Positions 5,111 to 55,193 of a stretch of 64,000 nucleotides of DNA are shown one piece after another. This DNA comes from Cordylochernes scorpioides (Eukaryota; Arthropoda; Arachnida; Pseudoscorpiones; Chernetidae): contig CP092870.1 in NCBI GenBank assembly GCA_030710605.1, forward strand, positions 56,505,532-56,569,531. Direction: 5' to 3'. Each line of letters begins with the position of its first letter. Within the stretch, counting starts at the first letter, position 1. Made by a program: the position numbers and the translations under genes. The notes beneath the pieces were generated by a model, which saw nothing but the letters and a program-made list of their open reading frames with translations, ran no database searches and was not told where the DNA came from.

Positions 5111-7330
5111 CTAATTATTCTTTTCTCTGACGTGATGGTATCTTATGTCAATGTGTTTGGATCTGTTGTTCTCCACATTATTTTTGGAAAAGTCTATAGC
5201 GGATCTATTATCGCAATGAATTATCAAGGGAAAGGCAAAATTCGATAAGAACTTTAATTCTTTCAAGATGGTAGCGATCCAAACTGCTTCCTTAGTAGTC
5301 TGGGATAGCGCTAAATATTCTGCCTCCATTGTGGAAAGTGAGACACACTTCTGTTTGCAAGTCTTCCATATGACTAAGGAATGTCCTATAGTGATAGCGA
5401 TCCCACTATTGGACCGTCTGTCATCGATGTCGCTAGCCCAATCTGCATCACTGTATGCACAAACATCATTGGAATCAGTCCGGCGATAAACGAGAGATAG
5501 ATTTATGCTCCCGTGTAAATATCTTAAGACGTGTTTGGCAGCTTGCCAATGTCGACGTCCAGGGTTGCTAGAGAATTGAGCTAATCTCGTAACGGAAAAC
5601 ATTAAGTCTGGCCTAGTACAATTCGCAAGATAAAGTCGCCATTCTAAGTCGCCATATAGATAAGCGTTATCTATGTCGAGATGTCTATTCTACCATTTCA
5701 TGTTCAAACTTAACGTTATCAAAACTCTGATTACAGCTAAGTTAATAACAGGTGCATAAGTTTCCTGAAAATCGATTCCTTGTTTCTGTGAGAAACCTCT
5801 AGCTACTAAACGTGCTTTGAAACGCTCTACATTTCCGCTCTCATTTGTCTTCACCTTATTTACCCATCTGCTGCTAATCGGTTTCTTCCCCAGCGGTAAT
5901 GTTGATAACTCCCAAGTGCCTCGTTCCTGAAGCACTCTAAGCTCATCGTCCATTGCTTTTCTCCAATACACGGCTTCGGGGGATTGGACTGCCTCTTCAA
6001 AACTTTGCGGCTCGGTAACATCTAAAAAATTTAACTCTACTCTTGGTTTACCTTTTCTCCCATATGGATTTCGAACAATGTTTTTGGAGGTGGAGGGTTG
6101 TGGTAGAGTGTCCTCTACCCCCACTGAATCCAAATTACTTGGTAATTCATTCTCTAGGTCGTTATCATGATTAGTCTCAGGTTCTAGCCAAACGTGGTTG
6201 TACCTTTCCGGTTCTGTCTCTTCGACTATTTTGGTCCACTCAAGTCCAATTTTAGACTCATCGAATCTAACATGTTTTGTTTCAATCACCTTTTGTAATT
6301 CTGGGCACCAGAGACGGTATCCACGTGTTTGAGTAGAGTATCCTACCAGAATACATCTACATGCCCGATGGTCTAATTTTCGCCTTCTTTCTCTTGGTAT
6401 ATGGCTATATGCCAAACATCCAAATGCTTTTAGGTGTCTTACACTAGGATTTCTTTCTAACCAAAGTCCATCAGGTACTTTGTCTTTTAGAGCACTATTA
6501 TAACATTTGTTCTTAATGTAAGCAGCTGTGTTTACCGCCTCTGCCCAAAATCTTTGGGGGAGATTAGCGCTATGTAAACAAGCGCGGGCCATATATAAAA
6601 GTGTTCGATTTACACGTTCTGCCACACCGTTCATTTGCGGAGAATACACGTTTGTGCGTTCATGCTTTATCCCTAGTTTTTGTAATTTGTCTTGAAAATC
6701 TCTATTGCAAAACTCAAGTCCATTATCCGATCGTAACACTTTAATTTTATTACCAGTTTGTCTCTCTACAGTGGCTCTATAGATATCGAAATGTTTTAAT
6801 ACCTCATCTTTGTTTTTCAGAAGATACACAGTAATCCTTCTTGAGAAATCATCAACAAAAGATAGAAAGTATCTATTGCCTCCGGTTGATTTTACCGGCA
6901 TTGAACCGCAAATATCTGTGTGGATAAGCTCCAAGGTCTGTTTAGATCTAATATTGCCTAGGTTTTTATGTGACGCTTTAGTGGATTTGGCGATACAACA
7001 ATCGTCGCATAGGCCTTTGTCTCTAGAGGAAATTTTTAAGCCTATTACGAGCTCTTCCCGCGCCATCTTTTCAATGGCGTTACTGTCAATATGGCATAAC
7101 CTTTGATGCCACGTTCTTAAGGAATTGTTCTGAAAATGGTCCCTTTCACTATTAAAAGCTGTTTTACTGGAGTTTAAGGTCTTACCTTTCACAATGTAGA
7201 GGCCATTTACATTTGTCGCTTTCGCTATAATCCTGTTTTCTGGGTTGAAAACGCGAGCTACCATATTACGGAAGGTCACACGGTTGCCGTTTTCTTCTAT
7301 CTTGGAGACTGACAGCAGATTCCTTCGCAC
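5111..7330 (-). pseudogene. Copia pol: integrase, reverse transcriptase remnant, RNase H
   Basis: From high to low coordinates: an integrase zinc region (His-His-Cys-Cys, W-H-Q-R-L to C-D-D-C-C), a catalytic core with D (H-T-D-I), D (S-D-N-G) and E (N-G-V-A-E-R), then the Copia RT entry (E-R-F-K-A-R-L-V-A-R-G). A TAG at about 5687 ends the frame. Past it, the same frame continues and jumps near 5640 from the first RT helices to the C-R-P-D-type segment, so the RT palm with the Y-V-D-D box is deleted. RNase H follows (D-A-D-W, M-E-A-E-Y, C-D-N-R-S). The extreme C terminus (about 5110-4975) is in another frame. Integrase looks intact; RT is dead. Confidence 0.85.
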
Positions 7331-9726: not shown

Positions 9727-10811
9727 GATTTTCTATATGATATAAAAAGCCAACAATGAAGAGTGAATGTAAGATAAAAAGCCAACAATGAAGAATGAAT
9801 GTAAGATAAAAAGCCAACAATGAAGAGTGAATGTAAGATAAAAAGCCAACAATGAATAGTAAATGTAATATAAAAAGCCAACAATGAAGAATGAATGTAA
9901 GATAAAAAGCCAACAATGAAGAGTAAATATAATATAAAAAGCCAACAATGAAGAATGAATGTAAGATAAAAAGCCAACAATGAAGAGTAAATATAATATA
10001 AAAGCCAAAAATGAAGAGTGAATGTAAGATAAAAAGCCAACAATGAAGAGTAAATGTAATATAAAAAGCCAACAATGAAGAATGAATGTAAGATAAAAAG
10101 CCAACAATGAAGAGTGAATGTAATATAAAAAGCCAACAATGAAGAATGAATGTAAGATAAAAAGCCAACAATTAAGAGTGAATGTATGATAAAAAGCCAA
10201 CAATGAAGAGTAAATGTAATATAAAAAGCCAACAATGAAGAATGAATGTAAGATAAAAAGCCAACAAAGAAGAGAAAATATAATATAAAAAGCCAACAAT
10301 GAAGAGTGAATGTAAGATAAAAATCCAACAATGAAGAGTAAATGTAATATAAAAAGCCAACAGAGTGAATGTAAGATAAAACGCCAACAATGAAGAGTGA
10401 ATGTAATATAAAAAGCCAACAATGAAGAATGAATGTAAAATAAAAAGCCAACAATGAAGAGTGAATGTAATATAAAAAGCCAACAATGAAGAATGAATGT
10501 AAGATAAAAAGCCAACAATGAAGAGTGAATGTAAGATAAAAAGCCAACAATGAAGAGTAAATGTAATATAAAAAGCCAACAATGAAGAATGAATGTAAGA
10601 TAAAAAGCCAACAATGAAGAGTAAATATAATATAAAAAGCCAACATTGAAGAGTGAATGTAAGATAAAAAGCCAACAATGAAGAGTAAATGTAATATAAA
10701 AAGCCAACAGAGTGAATGTAAGATAAAAAGCCAACAATGAAGAGTGAATGTAATATAAAAAGCCAACAATGAAGAATTAATGTAAGTTAAAAAGCCAACA
10801 ATGAAGAGTAA
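9727..10811. repeat. 32-bp minisatellite (about 34 units)
   Basis: The unit is about 32 bp around 'aaaaagccaacaatgaagag', alternating between 'gataaaaag' and 'tataaaaag' starts, so a 64-bp higher-order dimer is visible. Because 32 is not a multiple of 3 and the unit has no stop in any minus frame, three long overlapping minus-strand open frames arise. They are artefacts of the repeat, not genes. The array abuts Helitron ends on both sides. Confidence 0.9.
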
Positions 10812-10848
10812 ATCTCTATATCTCTATCTCTATATCTCTATATATATA

Positions 10849-46049: not shown

Positions 46050-46330
46050 TCTATATTAATAAAATGCAAATTTCATAAGTGTTGTTCACTAAAAACTTTC
46101 GTTACAATGCATCAATTTCAACCAAATTTTCAACATTTATGTAAAAAGAGATGGAGCAGGTTTTGCTTAACATCAAAATATATTTCCTAACATTAACATG
46201 CGTAACCTCGCTGTTATCGATTAAATACAAAAAAAATCAACAGAGTTAATTTTATTTATATATAAATACAAAATTAAATTTCAACAGAGTTAATTTTTTT
46301 ACATACTAGCTAATAATCTCAATCTAAAAA
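46050..46330 (+). mobile_element. Helitron 5' end (same family as 28,617)
   Basis: TCTATATTAATAAAATGCAA start after A; it then runs into the 32-bp minisatellite. Confidence 0.45.
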
Positions 46331-47203
46331 TATAATATAAAAAGCCAACAATGAAGAGTGAATGTAAGATAAAAAGCCAACAATGAATAGTAAATGTAAT
46401 ATAAAAAGCCAACAATGAAGAATGAATGTAAGATAAAAAGCCAACAAAGAGTAAATCTACTTATTTAATTGCCTTATTCTGTCTGTGTGAAGTTCACTGT
46501 GTGAAGTTCACAGATAGATTTTGGTCAGAATATAATATAAAAAGCCAACAATGAAGAATGAATGTAAGATAAAAAGCCAACAATGAAGAGTAAATATGAT
46601 ATAAAAAGCCAACAATGAAGAATGAATGTAAGATAAAAAGCCAACAATAAAGAGTAAATGTAATATAAAAAGCCAACAATGAAGAATAAATGTAAGATAA
46701 AAAGCCAACAATGAAGAGTAAATATAATATAAAAAGCCAACAATGAAGAATGAATGTAAGATAAAAAGCCAACAATGAAGAGTAAATATGATATAAAAAG
46801 CCAACAATGAAGAATGAATGTAAGATAAAAAGCCAACAATAAAGAGTAAATGTAATATAAAAAGCCAACAATGAAGAATAAATGTAAGATAAAAAGCCAA
46901 CAATGAAGAGTAAATATAATATAAAAAGCCAACAATGAAGAATAAATGTAAGATAAAAAGCCAACAATGAAGAGTAAATATAATATAAAAAGCCTACAAT
47001 GAAGAATGAACGTAAGATAAAAAGCCAACAATGAAGAGTAAATATGATATAAAAAACCAACAATGAAGAATGAATGTAAGATAAAAAGCCAACAATGAAG
47101 AGTAAATGTAATATAAAAAGCCAACAATGAAGAATAAATGTAAGATAAAAAGCCAACAATGAAGAGTAAATATAATATAAAAAGCCAACAATGAAGAGTA
47201 AAT
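46331..47203. repeat. 32-bp minisatellite, left part of second locus
   Basis: Same unit as at 9,727. It is interrupted at 46,457-46,530 by a short segment matching, inverted, 28,330-28,400 (tail of a tRNA-like repeat). About 25 units. The minus-strand open frames are repeat artefacts. Confidence 0.9.
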
Positions 47204-47479: not shown

Positions 47480-50400
47480 ATGGCGACGAGGCTTTCGTTC
47501 GAACCTTATGTAATGAAAGAAGAACCTTTCGAAAACTATATTCAACGATTCAAACAGTACATTTTTGTGAATGAAATTGAAGGTAAGAAGATTGTTCCTT
47601 TTTTTATTATGTCTATTGGACCAAATACTTATGGAATTCTGAAAGAATTGATCTCACCTAGAGATGTTTGTGCATTAGAATTTGAAGAAATTGTTAGTGT
47701 TCTACTTACTCATTTTACACCTAAGCTAAATATTATTTTTGAAAGATATGAGTTCAGCCAATTGATTCAGGAACATGGAGAAAAAATAGAAGAATATGTC
47801 CTTAAATTAAAAAAACAAGCTAATAAATGTAATTTTGGCTTAAATATTGAAGAACATCTAAGGGATAAATTCATTGCAGGCGTTTCTAATCAAGTTATTT
47901 TGAAAAGATTACTTCAAGAGCCTGAGCTCACTTTTAATATGGCAGTAAATATTGCTACCACAATAGAATCGGTAGATTGTAATGTGTTGAAAATGAAGTC
48001 TTATGCTGAAACTAAAGAAATAAACAAATTACATTCTAAATGCAAACATTGTGGAAAGATGAATCATCATTCGGACAGATGTTTTTTTAGAAATTCTTTC
48101 TGCTATTCTTGTAAACAATTGGGACATATATCGACTGTTTGTCATTCAAAATCTAAGAATGGATATTTTCAACCAAGAAAGAGCGAAGCATCTGCCCACG
48201 GAGAATCATTTTCGGGAAAGAATGGTGAGTCCATCAATAATATAGAATATCTGGCTAATAAATTTGAAAGTATTTTGTATGTCTTCGACATAAAATTCTT
48301 AGCAGAAATTGACACGGGTGCAGCTTTAACAACTATGTCAAAAGATCTATTTTTAAAATATTTTGAACATGTTAAATTATTTCCGTCTAAATGTTATTTA
48401 ACCGATTATCAAGGAAAGGGCATTTCCTCTATTGGAGAATGTAAAGTAAAAGTAAGATATAAAAATAAAATAGGCCATTTAAACTTAATAGTAACAAATA
48501 TTGAAAATAATAAATTTCTCATAGGAAAAGACTGGATAGTATATTTTGATATGGTACAAATTAATGTCCAACAAAATAATAATTTTGATACTAATTTTAT
48601 TTTTAATAAATATTGTAAACTTTTCAAAGATATAGTCTTGCCAATAAAGGATATTTCCGTACACATTAATGTAAAAAATAATTTTGCACCAAAATTTTAT
48701 AGATTTAGACCTGCTCCCTTTGCTATTAGAAATTTAATTGAGGAAGAACTATTATTTTTATTGAATAATGATATTATTGAAAATATAGTGGATAGCCCAA
48801 TAGCTTCACCGCTAGTATGCGTCCCTAAGAAAAACGGCAAAATTAGAATTTGCGCGGACTTTAAAAGAACCTTAAATCCATTTATCGAGGATGTAAAGTA
48901 TCCGATACCGAACATCGATAATGTTTTACATTCATTTTTTGGTAAAAGTATATTTAGTAAAATTGATCTTTCAAGCGCATACCATCAGATACTTCTAGAC
49001 GAGGAATCTCAAAAATTGACAGTTATTTCTACCCATAAAGGCCTTTTTAAATATAAAAGGCTGCCCTTCGGTATCAAGTCCGGAGCAACTATTTTCCAAA
49101 GAACTATGGACAATATTTTTTCCGGTCTTAAAAATGTAATAATATATTTAGACGATATTCTTGTAGCATCGTCTGATGTAAATGAGCATATTTCAGATAT
49201 TGAAACAGTCATGAATAAATTATCGGATTTTAATTTTTCAATTAATAAAGAAAAATCTTTGTTTTTTGTTGATGAAATCGATTATTTAGGACATAAAATA
49301 AATAAAAATGGAATCTATCCCCTTGAGGATAAACTGGACAGTATAAAAAAATGTCCTAAACCGAGTAACATTTCAGAATTGAAATCTTTCTTGGGCATGT
49401 TGTCATTCTACAGTAAATTCGTTAGAAATTTATCCATACATGCAAATCCTTTATTCTCTCTATTGAAAAGAAGTTATAATTGGAATTGGAAAAATGAACA
49501 TGACCAGGCTTTCGAAAAATGTAAAAATTTGATTAGTACAAAAACTTGTTTGACGCATTATTCGCAAGATTTACCTCTTTATGTTACTTGTGATGCATCA
49601 AATTATGGTATTGGAGGATATATTTCCCATATTGTAGACGGCACTGAGAAACCAATTACTTTTGTTTCAAGAACACTAAATGACACAGAAAAGAAATATT
49701 CCCAAATAGAAAAAGAAGGATTAGCAATATTCTTTACCTTAAACAGGCTAAAACAATTCCTTTACGGAAGAAAATTTATTATTAATACAGATCACAAACC
49801 ATTACTAGCCATTTTTGGCGATAAAAATAATTTACCAGCCTTAGTGGCAAATAGATTACATAGATGGTCACTCTCAATATCAAATTTTAATTTTGAAATT
49901 AAGTATACTAAGGGAAGTGAAATACCTCTTGCAGATTTTCTTTCAAGATTTCCAAATCCTGAAAAAGGGGAGAAGGAAGAGGAAATGGGAGAAATATTAT
50001 TAATAGAAAATTCGATATTAGATTACGTCTTGGTATCGTACAAAACCCAAGAAGATCCAACTCTTAGAAAACTATATAAGTTAGTCAAGTACGATAGGTA
50101 TGATGTTGACTCAGAGGTAGATATAAAACCTTATAATAGAATTAAAAACGAGATAACAATAGTAAGAAATTGCCTGTTTTTCGGAAATAGAATGATCATC
50201 CCCGATTCCTTAAGAGAATATGTTTTGAAAATCATCCATGAAAATCATATTGGAGTAAATAAAATGAAAACTCTGGCCAGAAGTTCTGTCTATTGGCCGG
50301 GAATGGATGAGCAAATTGAGAAACTGTCTAAAAGCTGTAGCACTTGTATGGAAAACACATCAAAGCTGCCAAAACAGGAATTTACCGAGTGGACTCCACC

Positions 50401-51274
50401 AAACAAAGTTTGGAAGAGAATTCATCTTGACTATTTCTATTTTGCGGGAAAAACTTTTTTGATATTGGTGGATGCGCATTCTAATTGGATAGAATGTCAA
50501 ATGGTTCCAAATACATCGGCGGGATTCTGCATAGACTTTTTGAGAGAATGTTTAGCGAGATATGGTATCCCGGAGGTGGCGGTAATGGATAATGGGCCCC
50601 CGTTTAGAAGTTATGAAATAAAGACATTTTTCGAAAGAAATGGCATACATGCGATGTTCAGCCCCGCTTACCATCCGGAGAGCAACGGACTAGCGGAAGT
50701 ATCTGTAAGAGAGATAAAAAAAACTATGAAAAGAATTATTTCGGAGGAAAGGGAATTGCCCCTTGAGTTTGCTTTGATTAAGGTTTTATATGCATATAGA
50801 CTGAGTCCTTTGACTAGAACGGAGAAATCCCCGGCTGGAATATTTTTAAATCGCGAGATTAGAACGAAGATTTCCATGTTGAGCAAGAAATCAGTAAGAG
50901 TGGGGAGATTGAAAAATAAAAAACAGAACAATAGATACAAAGTAAATGATAGAGTAAGATACAGATGGATGGAAAGAGGAAAACCGAAATGGATGTTTGG
51001 GATTGTAAAGAGAATAGTGGGAAGCAACAGCTGTATGATAGAAACTGATGGAATAGAAAGGAAAGTACACACTAACTATATGAGGAGAAGTATGGAGAGA
51101 AAGGATGTTTCGTCATCAGAAGAAGGAATAAGCTACCCAAGGCCTCAGACGTCAAGTCCCCTGACTCCTGCTACAATAGTAGCAGAATCTACACCTGGAC
51201 CACCGACTGAATCTACACCTTCCCGGAGATATCCACTACGAGAGAGGAGACCACCGGATAGATATGTACCTTAA
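47480..51274 (+). CDS. Gag-Pol polyprotein of the Mag-like retrotransposon
   Basis: 1264 residues in one frame. Order by approximate residue: gag (1-180), two CCHC knuckles (about 187-200 and 207-220), aspartic protease D-T-G (about 278), reverse transcriptase with Y-L-D-D (about 556-559), RNase H starting C-D-A-S (about 704), integrase zinc region H-H-C-C (about 918-955), catalytic D (about 983), D (about 1036) and E (about 1067), then a basic C-terminal tail. All catalytic residues named are present. The Mag group of Ty3/gypsy is inferred from the knuckle pair and the integrase wording. The ATG is one base from the presumed primer-binding site (TGGCGACGAGG), so there is almost no leader. 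No env frame follows. Confidence 0.93.
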   Translation: MATRLSFEPYVMKEEPFENYIQRFKQYIFVNEIEGKKIVPFFIMSIGPNTYGILKELISPRDVCALEFEEIVSVLLTHFTPKLNIIFERYEFSQLIQEHGEKIEEYVLKLKKQANKCNFGLNIEEHLRDKFIAGVSNQVILKRLLQEPELTFNMAVNIATTIESVDCNVLKMKSYAETKEINKLHSKCKHCGKMNHHSDRCFFRNSFCYSCKQLGHISTVCHSKSKNGYFQPRKSEASAHGESFSGKNGESINNIEYLANKFESILYVFDIKFLAEIDTGAALTTMSKDLFLKYFEHVKLFPSKCYLTDYQGKGISSIGECKVKVRYKNKIGHLNLIVTNIENNKFLIGKDWIVYFDMVQINVQQNNNFDTNFIFNKYCKLFKDIVLPIKDISVHINVKNNFAPKFYRFRPAPFAIRNLIEEELLFLLNNDIIENIVDSPIASPLVCVPKKNGKIRICADFKRTLNPFIEDVKYPIPNIDNVLHSFFGKSIFSKIDLSSAYHQILLDEESQKLTVISTHKGLFKYKRLPFGIKSGATIFQRTMDNIFSGLKNVIIYLDDILVASSDVNEHISDIETVMNKLSDFNFSINKEKSLFFVDEIDYLGHKINKNGIYPLEDKLDSIKKCPKPSNISELKSFLGMLSFYSKFVRNLSIHANPLFSLLKRSYNWNWKNEHDQAFEKCKNLISTKTCLTHYSQDLPLYVTCDASNYGIGGYISHIVDGTEKPITFVSRTLNDTEKKYSQIEKEGLAIFFTLNRLKQFLYGRKFIINTDHKPLLAIFGDKNNLPALVANRLHRWSLSISNFNFEIKYTKGSEIPLADFLSRFPNPEKGEKEEEMGEILLIENSILDYVLVSYKTQEDPTLRKLYKLVKYDRYDVDSEVDIKPYNRIKNEITIVRNCLFFGNRMIIPDSLREYVLKIIHENHIGVNKMKTLARSSVYWPGMDEQIEKLSKSCSTCMENTSKLPKQEFTEWTPPNKVWKRIHLDYFYFAGKTFLILVDAHSNWIECQMVPNTSAGFCIDFLRECLARYGIPEVAVMDNGPPFRSYEIKTFFERNGIHAMFSPAYHPESNGLAEVSVREIKKTMKRIISEERELPLEFALIKVLYAYRLSPLTRTEKSPAGIFLNREIRTKISMLSKKSVRVGRLKNKKQNNRYKVNDRVRYRWMERGKPKWMFGIVKRIVGSNSCMIETDGIERKVHTNYMRRSMERKDVSSSEEGISYPRPQTSSPLTPATIVAESTPGPPTESTPSRRYPLRERRPPDRYVP

Positions 51275-51580: not shown

Positions 51581-51808
51581 TAAATGTAATATAAAAAGCC
51601 AACAATGAAGAATGAATGTAAGATAAAATGCCAACAATGAAGAGTGAATGTAATATAAAAAGCCAACAATGAAGAATGAATGTAAGATAAAAAGCCAACA
51701 ATGAAGAGTGAATGTAAGATAAAAAGCCAACAATGAATAGTAAATGTAATATAAAAAGCCAACAATGAAGAATGAATGTAAGATAAAAAGCCAACGATGA
51801 AGAGTAAA
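51581..51808. repeat. 32-bp minisatellite, right part of second locus
   Basis: About seven units continuing the array of 46,331-47,203. It ends in 'gagtaaa', where a Helitron begins with TC. Confidence 0.9.
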
Positions 51809-52443
51809 TCTATATATATAAAATTGAATGTCTGTCTGTACTCTATAGTTTCAAAAACCATACATCCAATCGCCGTGAAATTTTGGGATATTATTAGGTA
51901 TATCACCGGGAAGGTTTTTGAAAAATAATTTCATGAATATCTTGAATATCCTTAGAGTTATTTGCAGATTTGTAGATTTAACTCGCAAGCAGCGCCCCTA
52001 TTGTGACGATGTAACAAGTTTTCTTATCACTAAGTTTGTTATCTTAAATATTATTTATCAAAAGTAAGATTATCTCAGGATGACACGGCAATTTATTTGA
52101 GACAAGAATAATGATACAATTCCAAGGCGAAGATACTATTCCTTTAACTTCCAATTACCGAGGGAACCAATTAATATTGATTTTATTCAACTTATCGAGT
52201 ATTTTTCAAGGGACCAGGAAAAAATTTTCACTAGATAAAACTATGATTTTCTAATGTAGAAAATTAGGAAAGACAAAATTCAGGATGACACGGCACACAG
52301 GGACCGGGAAAAAATGTTCACTTTATCGAGAGATTCAAATTTACGAGTTTCAAATTATCAAAATATATCTTTTTTTTTTTAAATAAGTTTTTAGAGAATT
52401 GTTTTAACAAATGTTCGTTAGACAAACATTAACTCGGGTAAAA
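51809..52443 (+). mobile_element. Non-autonomous Helitron, 3' end missing
   Basis: TCTATATATATAAAATTG start; the body closely matches copies 1 and 7 of the left array, up to 'aactcgggtaaaa'. The hairpin and CTAG are replaced by the next repeat. Confidence 0.65.
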
Positions 52444-52445
52444 TA

Positions 52446-52536
52446 TACATATAAAATAAAAGGATTTAAAGCGCGAATGTTTCTTTTATACATAAAACGA
52501 ACTTCTACTGTCCTTACTGCGATGAAAAAATATATT
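52446..52536 (-). repeat. Inverted partial unit of the ribozyme-bearing repeat
   Basis: About 90 bp equal to the reverse complement of the start of each following unit (for instance 52,894-52,977). It makes a long hairpin with the first unit. Confidence 0.75.
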
Positions 52537-52821
52537 ACAGGACAGTAGAAGTTCGTTTTATGTATAAAAGAAACATTCGCGCTTTAAATCCTTTTATTTT
52601 ATATGTTTAGATGGCGCGTTATTGCTTTGTGTTAATTTATTCCTAACTGTCCTTGTTTTTATAGTTTGCTGAAGAGTATTGCTCGCGGCAAATATTTGAA
52701 TGTAATTCTACTGTCCTATAAGCTTATGTCCATAGTTTACTTGAAAACCATTTCTAAGATTCTATCCTTCAGTGTAGCATATAAAAGCAGAATGACCCAA
52801 TACAGTATTAGAGCTCTGAGA

Positions 52822-52888
52822 AGCGGTCTGGTGGATTAAATTGGCGAAACCGCTGGGAGGGTTCACCACTGATGAGCCAAGCCCTCCC
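52822..52888 (+). ncRNA. Hammerhead-like self-cleaving RNA core, rewired strand order, copy 1
   Basis: Segment S: AGCGGT-C (cleavage expected after 52,828) then TGGTGGA. Segment B: TTGGC-GAA-ACCGCT (52,841-52,854). Segment A: TTCACCA-CTGATGA-GCCAA (52,862-52,880). Pairings give stem III (AGCGGT/ACCGCT), stem I (TGGTGGA/TTCACCA) and stem II (GCCAA/TTGGC), with the invariant CUGANGA, GAA, A15.1-U16.1 and C17 in place. The order S-B-A is not a circular permutation of the known S-A-B, so it folds only as a pseudoknot or between repeat units. An eight-pair stem TGGGAGGG/CCCTCCCA brackets segment A. Confidence 0.6.
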
Positions 52889-53125
52889 AATATATTTTTT
52901 CATCGCAGTAAGGACAGTAGAAGTTCGTTTTATGTATAAAAGAAACATTCGCGCTTTAAATCCTTTCATTTTATATGTATAGATGGCGCGTTATTGCTTT
53001 GTGTTAATTTATTCCTAAGCTTATAAGCTTATGTCCATAGTTTACTTGAAAACCATTTCTAAGATTCTATCCTTCAGTGTAGCATATAAAAGCAGAATGA
53101 TCCAATAAGTATTAGAGCTCTGAGA

Positions 53126-53192
53126 AGCGGTCTGGTGGATTAAATTGGCGAAACCGCTGGAAGGGTTCACCACTGATGAGCCAAGCCCTCCC
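53126..53192 (+). ncRNA. Hammerhead-like core, copy 2
   Basis: Same three strands and core bases as copy 1. The only change seen is GGAAGGG for GGGAGGG in the outer stem, which introduces one mismatch. Expected cleavage after 53,132. Confidence 0.58.
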
Positions 53193-53497
53193 AATATATT
53201 TTTTCATCGCAGTAAGGACAGTAGAAGTTCGTTTTATGTATAAAAGAAACATTCGCGCTTTAAATCCTTTTATTTTATATGTATAGATGGCGCGTTATTG
53301 CTTTGTGTTAATTTATTCCTAACTGGCCTTGTTTTTATAGTTTGCTGAAGAGCATTGCTCGAGGCAAATATTTGAATGTAATTCTACTGTCCTATAAGCT
53401 TATGTCCATAGTTTACTTGAAAACCATTTCTAAGATTCTATCCTTCAGTGTAGCATATAAAAGCAGAATGATCCAATACAGTATTAGAGCTCTAAGA

Positions 53498-53564
53498 AGC
53501 GGTCTGGTGGATTAAATTGGCGAAACCGCTGGGAGGGTTCACCACTGATGAGCCAAGCCCTCCC
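53498..53564 (+). ncRNA. Hammerhead-like core, copy 3
   Basis: Identical to copy 1 through the core. Expected cleavage after 53,504, 372 bases from copy 2. Confidence 0.58.
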
Positions 53565-53858
53565 AATTTATTTTTTCATCGCAGTAAGGACAGTAGAAGT
53601 TCGTTTTATGTATAAAAGAAACATTCGCGCTTTAAATCCTTTTATTTTATATGTTATCTATTTTAACAATATATGTAATGTCATCTGAAACTATACCATG
53701 TTTTTATGTCATATGAAAGTTTTTTTATATAGATTTCATTATTTCAACATTATTCCAACTTTCTCATTCGCGATGTTCCAATTTAATTATTTAGAATATT
53801 TTAAAATATATTTCTATCCTATCTTTCCCTCTATATATAAATGTCAAAATATATATAT

Positions 53859-54489: not shown

Positions 54490-55193
54490 GTAGCGGATGT
54501 ACCCGGCTTCGCCCGGTTTTTACCCGAGTAAAGGTTTGTCTAACGAACATTTGTTAAATCAATTCTCTATAAACTTATAAAAAAAGATATATTTTGATAA
54601 TTTGAAACTCGTTAATTTGAATCTCTCGATAAAGTGAACATTTTCCCCGGTCCCTTGAAAAATACTCGATAAGTTGAATAAAATCAATATTAATTGGTTC
54701 CCTCGGTAATTGGAAGTTAAAGGAATAGCATCTTTGCCTTGGAATTGTATCATTATTCTTGTCTCAAATAAATTGCCGTGCCATCCTGAATTTTGTCTTT
54801 CCTAATTTTCTACATTACAAAATCATCATTTTATCTATTCTCTCAATATATATGTTGTAGATAAATGATAAAACTAACTTTGACTTGTGCGCAATTAATA
54901 GGTAGAAAATCTTACTTTTGATAAATAATCTTTAAGATAATAAACTTAGTGATAATAAACTTATAGATAAAAAACTTGTTATCATCGTCGCAATGGGGGC
55001 GCTGCTTTCGAATTAAATCTACAAATCTGCAAATAACTCTAAGGATATTCAAGATATTCAAGAAATTATTTTTCAAAATCCTTCCTGGGGATATACCTAA
55101 TAATATCCCAAAATTTAACGGCGATTGGATGTATGGTTTTTGAATCTATAGAGTACAGACAGACAGACATTTAAGTATATATTTATATATATA
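54490..55193 (-). mobile_element. Non-autonomous Helitron, minus, first of three in tandem
   Basis: Left end GTAG plus hairpin complement (mutated CTAG). Right end with CAGACAGACAGACA and a TA run. The body is as in the left array. Confidence 0.65.

Follow-up and report, generated by a model that had tools for sequence, protein, structure and literature searches.

Type-SGC hammerhead ribozymes in high-copy, probably retrozyme-like tandem elements of the pseudoscorpion Cordylochernes scorpioides

The element and its hammerhead cores

The window, a 64,000-nt stretch of contig CP092870.1 (positions 56,505,532 to 56,569,531, forward strand; assembly GCA_030710605.1) of Cordylochernes scorpioides, contains an element in which a short inverted arm is followed by a direct array of ~371-nt units bearing three complete hammerhead cores (Table 1). 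The initial annotation had recognized the tandem repeat; the element itself is wider than was then described and starts with the inverted arm. The cores are unevenly spaced (304 and 372 nt) because one unit lacks about 68 bp. No open reading frame of 150 aa or more occurs in 52444-53654, so the 371-nt unit has no reverse transcriptase or GIY-YIG frame. The target repeat of this element is only 6 bp.

Table 1. Features of the SGC element in the window (window coordinates)
Feature	Position	Strand	Basis or remark
Whole element	52444..53654		Matches the 371-nt unit in both orientations; its two outer ends fall close to unit positions 261-264
Left arm, inverted, unit positions 172-264	52444..52536	-	93 nt, 100% complementary to 53193-53285
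Direct array	52539..53654	+	~371-nt unit
First right-arm unit, 5'-truncated, unit 194-371	52539..52716	+	Matches L001 1236-1413
Second unit	52717..53018	+	Lacks about 68 nt of its 3' part
TATA box candidate	52780..52785	+	49 nt upstream of the first base past the cut
Type-SGC hammerhead 1	52822..52888	+	H17 = C at 52828; predicted cut between 52828 and 52829
Hammerhead 1 stem III	52822-52827/52849-52854	+	Descriptor scan
Hammerhead 1 stem I	52829-52835/52862-52868	+	Descriptor scan
Hammerhead 1 stem II	52841-52845/52876-52880	+	Descriptor scan
Hammerhead 1 interaction stem	52855-52861/52882-52888	+	Pairing count
T6 run	52895..52900	+	Directly 3' of the ribozyme
Full 371-nt unit (reference)	53022..53392	+	Unit matches
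Box AAGCTTATGTCCATAGTT	53025..53042	+	Common to family B; unit position 4
Type-SGC hammerhead 2	53126..53192	+	H17 = C at 53132; predicted cut between 53132 and 53133; one A.C mismatch in interaction stem
Box GCAGTAAGGACAGTAGAA	53209..53226	+	Common to family B; unit position 188
Last unit	53393..53654	+	Stops at the outer end of the element
Type-SGC hammerhead 3	53498..53564	+	H17 = C at 53504; predicted cut between 53504 and 53505

Other repeats surround the element. It abuts a truncated long repeat, CCCGGCTTCGCCCGGG, at 51805-52443, which is present in inverted orientation on the other side (54518-55189). An open Ty3/gypsy-type frame of 1264 aa with gag, RVT_1, RNase H, and integrase lies beside it (47480-51274, plus strand), a Ty1/copia-type frame with RVT_2 and integrase is found at 5690-7330 on the minus strand, and one 32-nt satellite forms three arrays (9742-10813, 46328-47203, and 51583-51809).

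A core descriptor scan of both window strands in all six block orders returned exactly three matches, all with the strands ordered substrate, GAA, CUGAUGA (S-G-C). These coincide with the cores and the H17 cytosines of the initial annotation, and its reading of a pseudoknotted hammerhead is upheld. All type-SGC invariants (CUGANGA, GAAA, and U16.1-H17) are present, together with stem III (AGCGGU/ACCGCU, 6 bp), stem I (UGGUGGA/UUCACCA, 7 bp including one G-U), and stem II (GCCAA/UUGGC, 5 bp). On their other sides, stems I and II are connected by a UUAAA linker and by an interaction stem, GGGAGGG/CCCUCCC. This GC stem had been credited with eight pairs; seven were counted, and the possible eighth is a U-G that competes with stem I. 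On its own, the ribozyme strand has a minimum free energy fold in which stem III and the interaction stem each form a hairpin. The loops of these hairpins bear the sequences that pair as stems I and II; in effect, the pseudoknot is a double kissing contact built around the core.

Chance occurrence was evaluated in 6,000 windows simulated with a second-order Markov model and scanned on both strands. The weaker 5/4/5 descriptor gave two SGC matches, and the 6/5/6 descriptor gave no SGC match and one GCS match. In 120 prokaryotic or viral loci with a 19-nt ribozyme signature, no core of any order was found at 5/4/5. Given the three matches in the window against these controls, a chance origin of the cores was rejected. 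At least 119 stretches in bacterial genomes carry the signature, none with a core among the matches listed; in viral contigs, two longer patterns had zero matches and the 19-nt signature had one, without a core; and the patterns searched revealed no relatives in phages. Rfam models returned no hammerhead in a gathering-level scan of the window or in a permissive scan of 52400-53700.

The topology had been thought undescribed, which is incorrect: it is the type-SGC (non-circularly permuted) hammerhead published by Eckert et al. 2023 (PMC10085705), and it is the genomic mobile setting that is new. According to the available text of that paper, 583 type-SGC sequences were predicted from metatranscriptomes, with no genome of a known organism among the sources; self-cleavage was demonstrated in vitro, and disruptive and compensatory mutants covered all four helices. 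The window ribozyme shares with the HRIMA-1 motif and type-SGC variants described there the S-G-C order, the invariant bases, stems I-III, the short linker that connects stems I and II, and a helix uniting their other sides. It differs in having a linker of 5 nt, compared with typically 3 nt, and in being genomic, in ~371-nt mobile units of very high copy number (PMC10085705). No further reports of SGC ribozymes were found in the literature searched, a body of work to which most subscription papers and preprints did not belong.

Copies and their ends across the genome

With up to 3 mismatches allowed, the 19-nt signature occurs at 202,897 places in the 2.6-Gb genome, compared with 185 for a reversed control; these are counts of signatures rather than of intact ribozymes. 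The copies are organized as ~371-nt units in tandem, and head-to-head arms are frequent among them. A sample of 91 copies was drawn from the first 100 exact places listed, which all belong to a single chromosome; the other 9 are further units of arrays already included. A full core, with each stem at least 4 bp, is present in 36 of the 91, all of which had been chosen for an intact 19-mer, and 56 extend upstream of the ribozyme core. Two side observations concern the surroundings of copies: a family B copy at L002:1900-2500 ends in a T-run directly before a LINE-like 5' end and first frame (by eye), and a long near-perfect hairpin adjoins an SGC copy at L036:2080-2200.

The sampled copies fall by their 19-mer into two families, A (48) and B (43). 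Comparison of one unit from each showed 62 of 67 ribozyme positions identical, compared with 35/61 on the promoter side, 16/33 in the leader (plus 10 gap columns), 61/87 across positions 172-260, and 52/100 in another stretch, where the B sequence may partly be flank. Two 18-nt boxes that lie outside the ribozyme are identical in the families. From A to B, the outer pair of stem II changes from U-A to C-G and H17 from C to A, and in B the stem I pair 12-43 is lost to an A.C mismatch; the linker and interaction stem are retained in both. Among copies (L098 and L099 left out of the ribozyme alignment), only 1 of 25 pairs covaries, that in stem II, and probably represents a single event, so the copies by themselves are no proof of the fold.

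Of 66 copies with 5' starts between -160 and +35 of the predicted cleavage site, 8 start at the site itself (-1/0), where 0.67 were expected (p = 4e-7); after removal of 3 with ambiguous microhomology, the count is 5 of 63 (p = 5e-4). The remaining 25 of the 91 starts fall outside this range and include ends of the reference sequence and the edge set by the 19-mer. Copies at L036 and L058 likewise begin at the predicted site. Head-to-head junctions near the site number 16 in family A and 192 in family B, of which 50 were listed and 42 kept after 8 near duplicates were dropped. Among the 32 family A arms, 10 stop precisely at the site and 5 fall one base short of it; none extends by a single base, and 17 run through the site to scattered points, no other end having more than 3. 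Of the 84 family B arms in the listed junctions, 34 stop precisely at the site, 8 fall one base short, 27 extend by a single base, and 15 go beyond. The family A end is sharp because the next template base is G, and the family B end is blurred because the T one base further may be template or filler. The junction patterns are blind to arms that fall short by more than one base. The evidence for an excess at the site is the spread of ends within those patterns together with the 91-copy sample. The 17 family A arms that pass through the site imply that many templates were uncut, and the inner ends of high-identity arrays are varied and do not lie at the cleavage site.

Two further features of the junctions were observed. 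Arms reaching at least 3 bases past the site make up 15/84 in family B (deduplicated listed junctions) and 17/32 in family A, as if family B RNA were cut more completely. Several identical junctions are paired 30-200 kb apart, some inverted (for example, C1:156754810 and 156875385), as in segmental duplication or assembly redundancy.

The piled-up arm ends are read as the trace of RNA that would have been cut in vivo at the predicted bond before reverse transcription, and they are the strongest point of the overall reading. A transcription start site or a stop of the reverse transcriptase could also pile up ends. The TATA box upstream is compatible with the former, and stable RNA structure, which is able to stop reverse transcriptase, with the latter. 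However, the TATA box lies 39 nt from the site in family B (L002) and 49 nt in family A, so a start site common to the two families, which share the end base, is unlikely, and reverse transcriptase halted by structure should stop where it meets the 3' edge of a helix, not immediately past H17. Both explanations are considered very improbable, and ribozyme cleavage remains the preferred origin of the shared end.

The same promoter-like features invite the view that the unit is a small Pol III gene, with a TATA box, a transcript of ~90 nt, and a T5-T6 terminator, whose arrays were moved by unrelated means. A run of at least 5 T follows the ribozyme in 78/91 sampled copies, and TATA[AT]A occupies the matching stretch in 34 of the 39 that reach so far. 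However, most outer ends lie beyond the T-run (unit position 178) and the arrays continue through it, so the RNA that was copied had passed the T-run; this makes the Pol III gene an unlikely account of the unit.

Outer ends, movers, and a second SGC-bearing element

Most outer ends lie near unit positions 254-267 or 285-296, and inner ends vary. By eye, 16 of 24 two-armed elements combine an outer end near 254-267 with one near 285-296; both ends are near 254-267 in the window's element and in L006, and the other six have an end outside these ranges. Priming on the two DNA strands may use different sites of the RNA. Target repeats of 10 bp or more (10-16 bp) flank 15 of 34 elements, compared with a mean of 0.5 and a maximum of 3 for swapped flanks; this set is without L035, which has the same flanks as L029, and without elements truncated where a fetched stretch ended. 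A DNA transposon with terminal inverted repeats was rejected because the arms are tandem arrays, the inner junctions vary, and the target repeats are of variable length.

Metazoan non-LTR retrozymes offer a close parallel, being non-coding tandem hammerhead units of a few hundred bp with target repeats and high copy number (PMC7229834). The 371-nt unit falls within their range of about 150-450 bp, and target-site duplications of at least 10 bp accompany 15/34 elements as noted above. In the axolotl, 126,247 hammerhead motifs were counted (Cervera and de la Pena 2020, PMC7229834). The retrozymes in the available text of that work carry type I hammerheads, unlike the window unit, whose three matches are type SGC. 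Abundant unit-length circular RNA is a further mark of metazoan retrozymes.

The layout also recalls Penelope-like elements. A purified Penelope-like protein cut and extended both strands, preferred AT-rich DNA, and began copying within the RNA (PMC11167929); by analogy, the SGC elements resemble such elements in their tandem layout and AT-rich targets, and in what appear to be internal starts of reverse transcription and extension of both strands. A genome search for GIY-YIG domains gave at least 146 matches, with 150 of 17,015 candidates scored. By eye, 11 or more close pairs among the matches listed face outward, and no pair faces inward. At two of the three such loci that were read, L277 and L278, reverse transcriptase precedes GIY-YIG, and no SGC core was found in the stretches read of these or of the shorter pieces L275 and L276.

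At the third, L279, the order is apparently reversed. In its frame of 828 residues, GIY-YIG occupies residues 34-114, and motifs of a reverse transcriptase follow downstream by eye, with Pfam RVT_1 not listed up to E 10; this arrangement would resemble that of endonuclease-first Penelope-like elements (Naiad). In the 2021 Naiad paper by Craig and colleagues, endonuclease-first elements are reportedly without canonical hammerheads. Both arms of L279 nevertheless bear an SGC core in which stems III and I have 6 pairs each, stem II has 5, and the interaction stem (CTCAGGT/ACCTGAG) has 7, with a 3-nt TAA linker. This differs from the hammerheads known in Penelope-like elements, which are minimal type I variants according to the available text of PMC7761336. 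The ribozyme stretch has at least 41 matches, with 40 of 1,215 candidates scored, 37 of the matches being identical over the full length. Around L279, ribozyme copies recur at 5,259 and 5,289 bp on the two arms, as would be expected for the terminal repeats of a Penelope-like element. One partial copy begins 4 nt past its own cleavage site, not at it.

Helix covariation, proposed in the initial annotation as a check, was nearly uninformative between copies and would be informative between the two ribozymes if these share common descent. Of 24 pairs, 12 differ between the L279 and window cores on both sides, 2 differ on one side, 10 are the same, and none is broken.

L279 also bears on whether the active form might be conventional, with the GAA strand supplied by the next unit of a multimeric transcript (S-C-G, type III-like) and the order within a unit incidental. 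Many arrays are tandem, and the strands, pairs, and cleavage bond would be identical to those of the SGC fold, so the mapping of ends cannot separate the two. Against this fold, stem II would need a closing loop of about 300 nt, both families keep the short linker and interaction stem, and in L279, where the next copy on that arm is about 5.26 kb away, the within-unit order recurs together with a separate 3-nt linker and 7-bp interaction stem. The cross-unit fold is thus less likely than the within-unit SGC fold, and it is given very little weight.

Taken together, each ~371-nt unit is read, with a probability of about 0.83, as a type-SGC hammerhead in a retrozyme-like mobile life cycle, in which transcription, catalysis, circularization, and Penelope-like mobilization are inferred steps. 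Transcription would start from the TATA box just upstream, and the ribozyme would cut after H17, removing the leader; multimers would yield unit-length RNA. The cleaved linear, circular, or multimeric RNA would then serve as a template for a retroelement's machinery, able to open the two DNA strands and to prime on each of them from favored internal sites. Such double priming could produce arms joined head to head, with outer ends that recur and with inner ends that fall at the cleavage site where the template had been cut. The mobilizer may be a Penelope-like element such as the SGC-bearing one at L279.

The analysis as a whole suggests that these are retrozyme-like elements with an SGC ribozyme, probably moved by Penelope-like machinery; the tie to a mobilizing element is the weakest point of this reading. 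The 371-nt unit and the L279 element have no detectable sequence in common, and a LINE-like frame (by eye) adjoins one family B copy (L002), both of which would suit retrozyme-like elements that owe their movement to a LINE or some other retroelement and have no Penelope-like tie. The recurrent two-sided outer ends, head-to-head arms, and AT-rich target repeats instead fit the Penelope-like cleavage and extension of both strands described in PMC11167929. A LINE or other mover is therefore a less probable explanation, though one to be taken seriously, and Penelope-like machinery is preferred. A more specific proposal, on which opinion is evenly balanced, is that an endonuclease-first Penelope-like branch carries SGC ribozymes in its terminal repeats and that small parasites with SGC ribozymes of their own have multiplied to about two hundred thousand copies by means of such machinery.

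Significance for retrozymes and Penelope-like elements

Type-SGC hammerheads, formerly drawn from RNA of unknown origin, can now be placed in a genome, with a count of signature copies and a likely life cycle. The copy ends at the predicted bond would allow cleavage in vivo to be read from the DNA of an assembled genome alone; if this is true, the pile-up documents that a pseudoknotted hammerhead cleaved in vivo. The layout of window-type elements also bears on a question posed in PMC7761336, that of the machinery by which animal retrozymes are moved. The L279 element suggests that retroelements thought to be hammerhead-free may hold permuted hammerheads missed by current models. If the wider reading is true, the SGC ribozymes of metatranscriptomes would have their genomic home in animal retroelements of the endonuclease-first Penelope-like kind.
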